A program made the position numbers and the translations under genes. Shown piece after piece: positions 21,327-25,192 of a stretch of DNA of 64,000 bases. This DNA is from Rhodothermales bacterium (GTDB lineage Bacteria > Bacteroidota > Rhodothermia > Rhodothermales > UBA10348): positions 1-64,000 of the forward strand of contig JANJTM010000027.1 in assembly GCA_024711125.1 (NCBI GenBank), given 5' to 3'. Positions within the stretch are counted from its first letter, which is position 1. Every line of letters starts with the position of its first letter. The notes beneath the pieces are model-generated. The model was not told the DNA's origin. It saw nothing but the letters and a program-made list of their open reading frames with translations, and searched no databases.

Positions 21327-22130
21327 TCAGCGGCGACGCCCGTCCACGAGCGCGGCCGCAAGGAAGACGACGGCCTGGACGAGTACGATCGTCGCGCCGC
21401 TCGGAACGTCGGCAAGGTAGGACACGAGCAGTCCGGCGACCGCGGTAAGCATTCCGATCGCCACCGCCACGCGCGTCATCGTCACGAACGTGGGCACCAG
21501 CAGGCGGGCGGTCGCCGCCGGGATCACGAGAAACGCGGCCATGAGCACGATTCCGACGACCTTGACGGAGATGACGATCGTCACGGCGAGGAGCGCGAAA
21601 AGCAGGGTGTCGTCGCGGTCGACCGGTAGCCGATCGGCTCGCGCCGATTCGGCGTCGAAGGACGCATAGGCCCATCGGCCCCAAAGTCGCGGCGTGGTCG
21701 CGAGCGTGACGGCGCCCATCGCGGTCGCGATGACGAGGTCGGCAGGCGAGACCGCCAGGATCGAACCGAACAGGTACGCGAACGCATCCGTCGACATCTG
21801 TCGCCGCAGCGACAGGAATACGAGCCCGAGCGCGACCGCAACCGCGAAAAACACCCCGACGGCCGTGTCGCCGGCAAGCCGGGTGTGCCGCCGTACCCAG
21901 TTGATGGCCATCGCCACGCCGAGCGTGAACGGAACGGCCACCACGAGGGGCTCAAGCGACAGGAGCAGGCCGAGCGCGATGCCGCCGAAGGCCGCGTGCG
22001 ACAGGCCGGCGCCCAGGAAGCTCATTCGGCGCTGCACGACGAACACGCCGAAGTAGCTGGCCATGGCACCGACCAGCAGGCCCCCTGCCAGCGCCCGCTG
22101 CATGAACGGAAAGGTGAGCAGCTCAATCAT
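21327..22130 (-). CDS. Metal (zinc/manganese) ABC transporter permease, ZnuB-like
   Basis: Membrane subunit of a cluster-9 (ABC-3) metal importer. 267 aa from the ATG giving MIELLTFPFMQRALAGG, with about eight hydrophobic segments and the conserved early MSFLGAGLSHAAFGGIALG. It overlaps the ATPase gene by 8 nt. The frame is open further upstream inside the ATPase gene, but that part is a shadow. Confidence 0.93.
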   Translation of the reverse strand: MIELLTFPFMQRALAGGLLVGAMASYFGVFVVQRRMSFLGAGLSHAAFGGIALGLLLSLEPLVVAVPFTLGVAMAINWVRRHTRLAGDTAVGVFFAVAVALGLVFLSLRRQMSTDAFAYLFGSILAVSPADLVIATAMGAVTLATTPRLWGRWAYASFDAESARADRLPVDRDDTLLFALLAVTIVISVKVVGIVLMAAFLVIPAATARLLVPTFVTMTRVAVAIGMLTAVAGLLVSYLADVPSGATIVLVQAVVFLAAALVDGRRR

Positions 22131-22881
22131 GCCCGTGGCGGTGGGGGGCGAAGCGCCCGTGCGCGTGTCCCGTGTGTCCGAACGCCGATCGAACGGCCTC
22201 CTCCGTGAACGCGTGTGACGCGTCTCCGAAGGATACCATGCTGTTCCTGAGCAGCAGGACATGCGTGGCATGGTACATGGCGGCCTCCCAGTCGTGCGTG
22301 ACGAGGACCACCGCCGATCCGTTCTCACCGCGGCAGCCGTCCAGCAGCGCGTGCAGGTCGGCACTGCCGGCCGCGTCCACGCCGGTCTCGGGCTCGTCGA
22401 GCAGGATGAGGCGGGGCCGTCGGGCGATCGACCGGGCCAGATAGATACGCTGCAGTTCGCCGCCGGACAGGACGCCGATCGATCGGTCGGCGAGGTGCGC
22501 GGCGCCGACCCGTGCGAGCGCTTCCATCGCCTCTTCGCGTTCGGGAGGTCGGAGCACCCCGGGCCAGCGGCCCAGGTAGGCCGACGCGACCAATTCGATG
22601 GCCCGGGCCGGAAAAGCGCGGTCGAGCGACTTGATCTGCGGAACGTATCCGACGGCACCGGCCGGGGCCTGGCCGATGGGCAGCCCGTCGAGGATCATCG
22701 TGCCCCTTCGCGGCATGACGAGCCCCAGAAGCGTACGAAGAAGCGTGGATTTTCCGCTCCCGTTCGGCCCGAGAATGGCCAGGAGCGACGAAGGCGGGAT
22801 CGCGAACGAAACGGATCGCAGGATGTCCCGATCGCCGAGTCGCACGTCAAGGCCGTCCACGCGCAGGAGTTCAGCGGCCAT
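22123..22881 (-). CDS. Metal ABC transporter ATPase, ZnuC-like, with His-rich tail
   Basis: Nucleotide-binding subunit, 252 aa. Walker A GPNGSGKST (38-46), signature LSGGELQR, Walker B LILLDEPETGVD and the H-loop VLVTHDW are all intact. The last 17 residues hold six histidines (HTGHAHGRFAPHRHGHD), which suggests zinc sensing or buffering at the cytosolic face. It overlaps the upstream fusion gene by 11 nt and the permease by 8 nt, so the three genes are coupled. Confidence 0.93.
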   Translation of the reverse strand: MAAELLRVDGLDVRLGDRDILRSVSFAIPPSSLLAILGPNGSGKSTLLRTLLGLVMPRRGTMILDGLPIGQAPAGAVGYVPQIKSLDRAFPARAIELVASAYLGRWPGVLRPPEREEAMEALARVGAAHLADRSIGVLSGGELQRIYLARSIARRPRLILLDEPETGVDAAGSADLHALLDGCRGENGSAVVLVTHDWEAAMYHATHVLLLRNSMVSFGDASHAFTEEAVRSAFGHTGHAHGRFAPHRHGHD

Positions 22882-24682
22882 GGGATACCTCCTCGAGCGT
22901 CATGGCGATGCGCTCCAGCAGCGCGCGATACGTGGGCGCGGTCTGCGGGCTGCCGATCGGATCGGCCGTCACATACGGAATCCCCGCCGCCTCGGCGACG
23001 GCGCGTGCGGCGTTCTCCGGCAGCGTGGGCTGCCCGACGACCGCGCGGGCACCTCGCGCGATGCGGATCACGTCCTGGAGATGCGCAGGTGAAGGCTCCA
23101 CGCCCTCCACGACTTCCACGAGGGCGACCGTGTCGAATCCATAGCCGTCGAGGAAGTACGCGAGGAAACTCGAGGCGGCCACCACCCGGGTGCCCGCGAC
23201 GGCCGAGAGGCGCTCGCGGAGCGAATGGTCCAGGACGGCGAGTTCGCCGGCGAGCGAATCGGCCCGCGACCGGTATCCGTCGCATCCTTCCCGGTCCAGC
23301 GAGCACAGGTGCTCGGCCAACGGGGCGAGGGTGGAGGCCACCGCGCTCGGAGACAGCCAGAAGTGGGGATCGGGCGCTCCGGAGACGAACCGACGGAGCG
23401 AGTCCGGGACCGATGCGAAGACCTCGAACGGGGCACGGAAGCCGAGGTCGGCGAACCAGCCGTCGACTCCACGTGCGGCGTACAGCCCGGACAACGCGTT
23501 CCCTACGGCGCGGAGGTCGCTCGGACGCGGCTCATGCGTGTGCGGCGAGACGCCCGGTTCCATCAGGGTCACCACGTCGGCCCGAGGACCCACCACGTCC
23601 CGGGCGAGCAGGGTTACCGCGTGGAACGTCGACACCAGGGTGGGCGGACCGTCCGGGACGGGACGTTCGGCCGGGGCGCAGCCCGGAAGTACGAAGGCCA
23701 ACACGACGAGGGCCGCGAGACGGGCCGCGGTCTGTGCGAAAGGCCTCGAGGTCCATCCGAGTTCGCCCCTCGCCCTGGAAGCGTCGTAGCATGTCGAGCG
23801 GGAAGAGACGCGCGCGCCTTCCCGGGTCAGGCGCGGAGTCCGGCGCAGCGCGCGGGCCGCGATCTCGGAGAAAAGACCGAGCAGGGCGAGCAGTCGGGGG
23901 CGAGCCGGGCGGGAGGGTACGCGGGCACCGTGCGCGCGGGCGAGGGTTCCGAGTATGTCACGCCATGCAAGGTGCTCTCCGGCGAGGACGTAGCGCCTGC
24001 CTGCGACTCCCCGCTCCATCGCGAGCATCATTCCGGCGGCGACGTCCTCGGCGTCCACCACGTTCGTAGCTCCGGTCGGATAGGCCGGCATCCGGTTTCG
24101 ACGCACGCGCTCCACGATTCCCCACGTGTTCTCCCCGGGCAGGCCCAGGCCGAAAACCAGGGAGGGATTGACGATGACGGCGTCCAGGCCCTCGGCTACG
24201 GCCCGTTGGACCTCGAGTTCGGCCAGGTACTTGGAGCGTGCATAGACCGTGTTGAACGGGGAGTCCGTCCAGGGCGTCTCCTCGTCGAGGCAACCCTCTT
24301 CGCGGGCCGGGCGGGAGAGGGCGGCCACCGACGAGACATGCACGAGACGATCCACGCCGGCCCGAAGCGCCGCATCGACCACGTTCCGGGTTCCGATCAC
24401 GTTGACGGCATGCATGCGCTCGGCCGCGGACCCTCCGGGGAATCCCACCCACGCCGCGAGGTGGTACACGCGGTGCGCGCCGTCGAGGGCAACCGCGAGC
24501 GACTCCGGGTCGCGCACGTCGCCCCGGACGATCTCCACCCGATCCATCAGGTCGCCCAGCAGCCGGGTGTCGGAGCCGGGACGCAGGAGCAGCCGGACCG
24601 CGTCCCCCGCGTCGACGAGACGTCGAACGAGGACCGAGCCCACGAGGCCGGTAGGTCCGGTCACCAGCGTCGGTCGGGCCAT
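22871..24682 (-). CDS. In-frame fusion: NAD(P)-dependent epimerase/reductase + ZnuA-like metal-binding protein
   Basis: One 603 aa frame. Residues 1-320 form a complete short-chain epimerase/dihydroflavonol-reductase-like domain: TGPTGLVG at 8-15, Y147-xxx-K151, VNPSLVFG. Residues 321-335 (RLAALVVLAFVLPGC) look exactly like a lipoprotein signal peptide with lipobox LPGC (Cys335). Residues about 345-603 are a cluster-9 metal-binding protein: STFHAVTLLA (H354), GVSPHTHEP (H381), DPHFWLSP (H440), VTADPIG (D574). The His usually found in the HxxxxYF segment is Ser (near 504). No ATG, GTG or TTG occurs in frame between about residues 295 and 326, so a separate ZnuA start is not available. It abuts the biotin carrier gene and overlaps znuC by 11 nt. 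Confidence 0.85.
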   Translation of the reverse strand: MARPTLVTGPTGLVGSVLVRRLVDAGDAVRLLLRPGSDTRLLGDLMDRVEIVRGDVRDPESLAVALDGAHRVYHLAAWVGFPGGSAAERMHAVNVIGTRNVVDAALRAGVDRLVHVSSVAALSRPAREEGCLDEETPWTDSPFNTVYARSKYLAELEVQRAVAEGLDAVIVNPSLVFGLGLPGENTWGIVERVRRNRMPAYPTGATNVVDAEDVAAGMMLAMERGVAGRRYVLAGEHLAWRDILGTLARAHGARVPSRPARPRLLALLGLFSEIAARALRRTPRLTREGARVSSRSTCYDASRARGELGWTSRPFAQTAARLAALVVLAFVLPGCAPAERPVPDGPPTLVSTFHAVTLLARDVVGPRADVVTLMEPGVSPHTHEPRPSDLRAVGNALSGLYAARGVDGWFADLGFRAPFEVFASVPDSLRRFVSGAPDPHFWLSPSAVASTLAPLAEHLCSLDREGCDGYRSRADSLAGELAVLDHSLRERLSAVAGTRVVAASSFLAYFLDGYGFDTVALVEVVEGVEPSPAHLQDVIRIARGARAVVGQPTLPENAARAVAEAAGIPYVTADPIGSPQTAPTYRALLERIAMTLEEVSHGR

Positions 24683-25192
24683 CTATCGCGACTCGAATTC
24701 GATAAGCGGGGCGTTCTTGAGTACCGCGTCGGCCGGCCGGACGTGTACCCGCTCGACGACCCCCTCGTGCGTCGCGCGGATCTCGTTCTCCATCTTCATC
24801 GCTTCGAGCACCACGAGCGGATCCCCGGCCCGGACCGTGTCTCCCGGAGCCACGTGCACCTTCACGATGAGGCCCGGCATCGGCGAACGCACGGAGTGGT
24901 GGTGCCGGGAGCGCGCATCGCCTCCCTGCGCATCGCGAAGCAGGCGCTCGCGCCGCCCGAGCACCTCGGCCACGTGGATGCGCTGCGACGAGCGGAGCCG
25001 GAAGGTACCGGGCTCGCCGGGCTCCACGGCGACCACCAGGCTCTTGCCGTCCACGAGCAGCGAATAATGACCGGGGCCGGTTTCGGCGAGGGAGACGTTG
25101 ATCGGTCGCCCTTGGACCGAGAGCGTCTCACCGTCGCGTTCCACCTCGATCGGGCGACCGGCGATCGTGACCAGGAACGTCTCTCGGGGCAT
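24683..25192 (-). CDS. Biotin/lipoyl carrier protein (acyl-CoA carboxylase BCCP-like)
   Basis: 169 aa. The C-terminal biotinyl domain (about 100-168) has MPG at 105-107 and the biotinylation site EAMKMEN with Lys133. The N-terminal half (about 1-75) resembles the BT-type segment found before the biotinyl domain in acyl-CoA and pyruvate carboxylases. A cluster HHH lies in the linker (97-99). No biotin carboxylase or carboxyltransferase is nearby. Its stop directly abuts the start of the epimerase-ZnuA fusion, so it heads an operon with a metal importer, an odd context. Confidence 0.88.
   Translation of the reverse strand: MPRETFLVTIAGRPIEVERDGETLSVQGRPINVSLAETGPGHYSLLVDGKSLVVAVEPGEPGTFRLRSSQRIHVAEVLGRRERLLRDAQGGDARSRHHHSVRSPMPGLIVKVHVAPGDTVRAGDPLVVLEAMKMENEIRATHEGVVERVHVRPADAVLKNAPLIEFESR

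Follow-up and report, generated by a model that had tools for sequence, protein, structure and literature searches.

Lipoprotein signals are defined as N-terminal features, and gene callers and signal predictors search for them only there. Can such a signal be used when it lies in the middle of a polypeptide, behind a complete cytosolic enzyme? The question is raised by a single minus-strand frame (22871-24682) in the window, the whole stretch of 64,000 nucleotides from a member of the Rhodothermales that was analysed here (genome G000 below). According to the list of open reading frames and its translation, this frame is open for 603 codons from its ATG. Its parts are an SDR oxidoreductase of the extended type (residues 1 to about 324), a lipoprotein-type signal inside the chain (residues 321-335) and a PF01297 domain (residues 350-598). 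The features of the region are:

24683-25180, minus strand: biotin/lipoyl carrier protein (EAMKMEN), from the ORF translation, 5' boundary approximate
23711-24682, minus strand: extended SDR oxidoreductase (NAD-dependent epimerase-like) domain, residues 1 to about 324 (PF01370, PF01073, two sequence motifs)
23678-23740, minus strand: joint FAQTAARLAALVVLAFVLPGC, residues 315-335, where the last SDR helix passes into what was the hydrophobic core of the ZnuA signal (hydropathy, predicted helix, alignment with separate relatives)
23710-23729, minus strand: 8-bp direct repeat CGCGGCCC at the joint, two copies 12 nt apart (repeat scan)
22874-23680, minus strand: ZnuA-type metal-binding (cluster A-I) solute-binding domain, residues 335-603 (PF01297, PDB relatives, family alignment)
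22123-22881, minus strand: ABC transporter ATPase, ZnuC/MntA-like (Pfam ABC_tran, 6.6e-28; the top NCBIfam names are Mn/Zn importers, below cut-off)
21327-22157, minus strand: ABC-3 permease, ZnuB/AztB-like (Pfam ABC-3, 4.9e-70; AztB, 8.4e-56, below cut-off)

An SDR oxidoreductase and a ZnuA-type domain in one open frame

An earlier, sequence-only reading of this DNA had described an epimerase joined in frame to a ZnuA-like protein, and the join is confirmed by the uninterrupted frame and by its matches to both Pfam Epimerase and Pfam ZnuA. The GC content by codon position is equal in the two halves (0.76/0.54/0.82 in the SDR half, 0.76/0.54/0.84 in the ZnuA half), and both are therefore read in the 603-codon frame. 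Judged from its sequence, the fused frame is beyond chance: both halves are full-length homologues of known families, and the corresponding frame of a second species (G011) is likewise free of stops.

The Epimerase match covers residues 6-234 (1.1e-29), a segment also matched by 3Beta_HSD. The TGxxGxxG and YxxxK motifs named in the sequence-only reading are present, as TGPTGLVG (8-15) and YARSK (147-151); with these motifs, a Rossmann fold and a predicted model that matches SDRs, the half belongs to the extended SDR superfamily. Its closest solved structure is gox2253 (3wj7; 37% identity over 329 columns). Against the HpnA model TIGR03466 (NCBIfam), however, it scores 235.1 bits, under the cut-off of 367.65, and it is not assigned to HpnA. 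Extended SDR oxidoreductase is therefore a better name for this half than epimerase. In the alignment the half stops where its separate relatives stop (...RPFxETAxRIAxAL).

The ZnuA match (PF01297) spans residues 350-598 at 3.5e-40, with 138.6 bits against a cut-off of 29, and takes in HMM positions 2-262 of 263. The same domain scores 130.5 bits in G011 and 73-148 bits in ten separate relatives. YfeA and Synechocystis ZnuA are sequence relatives of this half in the PDB. The zinc (AztC, ZnuA) and Mn (MntC) equivalog models of NCBIfam all match below cut-off, and any metal specificity is a candidate only. The half lacks an export signal at an N-terminus of its own. Its domain is a member of PF01297, but the protein as a whole departs from the standard exported SBP. 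Candidate metal ligands His381, His440 and Asp574 align with those of the family, in which three His, or His/Glu, plus Asp are expected, and the third position is Ser504.

Could the Ser at the third ligand position mean that the fusion inactivated znuA, the unexported ZnuA half being carried along while another importer covers the need? A complete canonical importer elsewhere in the genome (contig C37, see below) would fit such decay. Against it, the frames of ZnuA, ZnuC and ZnuB are all intact, the ZnuA half has kept its score, its GC3 and the other three candidate ligands, and the same state is found in G011. The loss of the third His was set aside as a sign of decay, since most separate relatives also lack it. 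Decay is accordingly given a slender probability. In most of the SDR-linked ZnuA clade, separate relatives included, the third-ligand His is replaced by Gln, Leu, Ser or others, a variability that, read from sequence, suggests an altered metal site or substrate.

The operon and a second importer

The TAG of the upstream biotin carrier gene directly precedes the ATG of the SDR, the ATG of the ATPase overlaps the 3' end of the fusion, and the ABC-3 permease gene overlaps that of the ATPase. The ATPase and ABC-3 permease that belong with a ZnuA are thus present in the operon, both with intact frames. The region yielded no promoter-like site and a single terminator-like site, no more than chance would give.

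The order biotin carrier, SDR, ZnuA, ZnuC, ZnuB (21327-25180), with def at one end and pfkA and ubiE at the other, is common to distant members of the family, G011 among them. The biotin carrier also adjoins the SDR in G011, in G007 and in other families of the order, whereas, among genomes with the SDR, ZnuA was seen as its direct neighbour in no other family than that of the window. A metal importer here travels together with an SDR and a carrier of the acyl-CoA carboxylase type, the carrier-SDR pair being the more widespread in the order.

Contig C37 of the same genome (3000-12000, locus L065) carries a second, canonical importer with SBP, ATPase and permease, and the fused system is therefore not the sole importer of its class. 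The SBP of this set itself carries a lipoprotein signal and shows the usual ligand motifs, and the permease frame of the set runs into a DtxR-like C-terminal segment.

The joint holds a lipoprotein-type signal and no usable start

Between the two domains lies RLAALVVLAFVLPGC (residues 321-335), as the sequence-only reading had it. The hydropathy maximum of the whole protein falls at residues 322-332, the lipobox L332-P333-G334-C335 follows LAALVVLAFVL, and positions -3, -1 and +1 fit [LVI]-[ASTVI]-[GAS]-C, position -2 being an atypical Pro. Lipoproteins carry an N-terminal signal with a positive n-region; here the signal is internal, at residue 321, and a single Arg (Arg321) stands ahead of a hydrophobic core of only 11-14 residues. 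An AlphaFold2 model built from a 43-row alignment contains two confident domains (mean pLDDT 93.5, pTM 0.61), with one predicted helix (315-331) linking the last SDR helix to the signal core and a low-confidence linker (332-340) around the lipobox that includes the candidate cleavage site.

The absence of a usable in-frame start for znuA, claimed earlier, is borne out. The last ATG, GTG or TTG in frame ahead of the signal is at codon 222, there is none in codons 223-326, and GTG327 and TTG328 alone precede Cys335; being only 7-8 codons ahead of that Cys, these two are too near to start a signal peptide. Internal initiation at one of them, or at a non-standard codon, would yield a separate ZnuA, and the core of G011 even holds an in-frame ATG (MLLLVFIVGC). 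The leader would have 7-8 residues and no positive charge in G000, however, and 9 residues, equally uncharged, in G011, and no motif resembling a ribosome-binding site lies at the right distance before codon 327. Internal initiation is therefore considered very improbable.

The two topologies put forward in the sequence-only reading, a transmembrane anchor or cleavage by signal peptidase II, are still the best candidates on the sequence evidence. If the signal stays uncut, the joint would act as a membrane anchor and the product would be one protein of 603 residues, with the SDR inside and the ZnuA domain outside. The open frame, the lack of a usable znuA start and the recurrence of the fusion in G011 agree with such an anchor, as does the single predicted helix across the joint; the Pro at -2 may weaken processing of the lipobox, and N-in/C-out proteins with cytosolic N-domains exist, for example RodZ (PMC9360617). 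A stable transmembrane helix, however, would normally be longer than the 11-14 hydrophobic residues here, a length typical of signal cores, and both independent fusions, like nearly all separate relatives, have kept the lipobox Cys. From the sequence, then, the short core points to cleavage rather than to a permanent anchor and the Pro at -2 mildly away from efficient cleavage, and an uncut anchor appears unlikely.

The fusion is derived and arose twice

The bacterial family comprises 27 genomes, with 22 loci readable across the joint, and biotin carrier, SDR, ZnuA, ZnuC and ZnuB form a conserved cluster in it. SDR and znuA are separate genes in 20 of the 22 loci (G007, whose frame is disturbed by an N-run, being counted as separate by inspection), and in at least 11 they overlap by exactly 4 nt. 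In these relatives the SDR ends soon after RPFxETAxRIAxAL and the ZnuA starts with its own signal. Only G000 and G011, which belong to distant genera, have a stop-free fusion, with nearly the same joining point. The fused frame of G011 is 682 codons long from stop to stop, with ZnuC and ZnuB intact downstream; its joint, PFSETAARIASAALMLLLVFIVGC, has the same design, and an out-of-frame TGATG remains there, from its sequence likely left over from the former overlap. In both fusions the SDR is nearly complete to its usual last residue and the charged n-region of ZnuA is gone, while the hydrophobic core and the Cys are kept. The two fall in different, well-supported clades on the SDR tree and on the ZnuA tree alike, and the fusion therefore arose independently, twice.

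According to the sequence-only reading, relatives with a stop and a proper znuA start would speak against a fusion. Such relatives do exist and represent the ancestral state, but the assemblies of G000 and G011 do contain the fusion. The locus is thus a derived fusion, arisen twice, of operon neighbours that are separate in most of the family, rather than a conserved layout of a metal importer, and the organism has a second importer on C37.

Several other long frames were rejected as fusions. The seemingly fused frame of 665 codons in G007 is caused by an N-run inside the SDR, which ends separately. Open frames of 585-602 codons in G056, G035, G085 and G094 are upstream extensions in GC-rich DNA, with a normal SDR end. 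In G025 both genes are in one frame but a TAA stands between them; there (L002, around 2440-2540) the single TAA and a short gap are all that part SDR and ZnuA, and read-through of the stop alone would join them. No further fusion scored with this protein at the thresholds used among the 114 genomes searched in the order, the 245 in the class or the 395 sampled across the phylum; the thresholds for class and phylum were strict enough that weaker fusions there could escape. No second genome of the same genus was found, the nearest relatives being about 43-57% identical, and no 16S rRNA gene was found in the G000 assembly.

Might the organism have two separate genes, the draft contig having lost or gained bases at the joint? 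Both assemblies are drafts (81 contigs for G000, about 270 for G011), a short direct repeat lies at the G000 joint, the apparent fusion in G007 does stem from an N-run, and in G011 a small indel could explain why the TGATG that persists at the joint no longer forms an overlap. In G000, however, the usual layout cannot be regained by changing one base: the first stop in the other two frames comes at codon 356 or 383, and the one ATG close by, at about codon 309, is out of frame. Since the n-region of znuA is wholly missing there and no one-base repair is available, a deletion of several codons is needed, which makes an artefact less likely than for G011. Moreover, the same type of joint occurs in two unrelated assemblies, and the fused region is present in one copy in the G000 genome. 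An assembly or sequencing indel is therefore rated as rather improbable. The repeat CGCGGCCC is possibly the scar of a deletion, and it is short enough to have arisen by chance.

A mid-chain signal for export: proposed mechanism

Taken together, we favour a genuine derived fusion in which the joint serves as an internal type II signal; with all inferred steps required to be right at once, we put the probability of this reading at about 0.43. As comparison with relatives shows, a small deletion or indel removed the stop of the SDR and the start of znuA, two signals that overlap in most of those relatives, and translation of the SDR therefore continues into the signal core of ZnuA. The helix at the joint, with Arg321 as a minimal n-region, may then act as an internal N-in/C-out type II signal: the SDR would fold in the cytosol, the C-terminal ZnuA domain would pass through SecYEG, Lgt would lipidate Cys335 and LspA would cut between Gly334 and Cys335. 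The expected products are a ZnuA lipoprotein that serves ZnuB and ZnuC as before and an SDR with a greasy C-terminal tail at the membrane. That a true polyprotein is made, in which a lipoprotein signal placed after a cytosolic enzyme of 330 residues is used by Sec, Lgt and signal peptidase II and which evolved twice from overlapping genes, is a tentative proposal, rated at somewhat less than even odds.

SecA targets RodZ via its internal TM segment, so that an export segment placed behind a cytosolic N-domain is a workable arrangement (PMC9360617). According to a survey of frame transitions, genes that lie side by side may have fused homologues, and translational coupling is frequent in ABC transporter genes (PMC3711429). 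The fusing of translationally coupled neighbours is thus a known kind of event; the unusual part is an internal lipobox in mid-fusion, kept twice. In the literature searched, which excludes most subscription journals, we found no published internal lipobox after a cytosolic domain of 330 residues and no direct precedent for SDR-ZnuA fusions.

Two independent fusions that kept the lipobox and lost the start suggest that the export machinery may accept a lipoprotein signal in mid-chain. If so, some exported proteins hide inside annotated cytosolic fusions, and one chain would here release a membrane-tailed enzyme and a lipidated metal-binding protein. The locus shows, moreover, how an overlapping gene pair can become one gene through a tiny change, the last SDR helix taking over as the n-region of the signal.

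Comparison with known systems

The fused SDR shares the fold and the TGxxGxxG and YxxxK motifs with HpnA (TIGR03466) and gox2253 (3wj7) but, unlike them, bears a C-terminal export segment and a second domain, and it stays under the HpnA cut-off. Similarly, the ZnuA half shares with the cluster A-I SBPs of PF01297 (ZnuA, YfeA, TroA, AztC) a full-length HMM match, ligands 1, 2 and 4 and an adjoining ABC ATPase and ABC-3 permease; it differs in its internal signal, the Ser at ligand 3 and equivalog scores below the NCBIfam cut-offs. The separate pairs of the family (G009, G014, G018, G003, G005, G016, G022 and others) have the gene order, the C-terminal SDR motif, the ZnuA clade and the lipobox signal in common with the fusion, but consist of two frames with a stop and a start, usually in an ATGA overlap, and carry the signal at the N-terminus of ZnuA.

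With respect to topology, RodZ, ToxR and CadC resemble the fusion: all three are N-in/C-out proteins in which the N-domain is cytosolic, the C-domain periplasmic and the export segment internal. Their segments, however, are anchors of normal length that stay uncut and lack a lipobox. In the cytochrome b/c1 polyprotein FbcH of Bradyrhizobium japonicum, two proteins are made in one chain and an internal signal is cut by signal peptidase; in contrast to what is proposed here, the enzyme is signal peptidase I and not II, and the first half of FbcH is a multi-span membrane protein and not a soluble enzyme.
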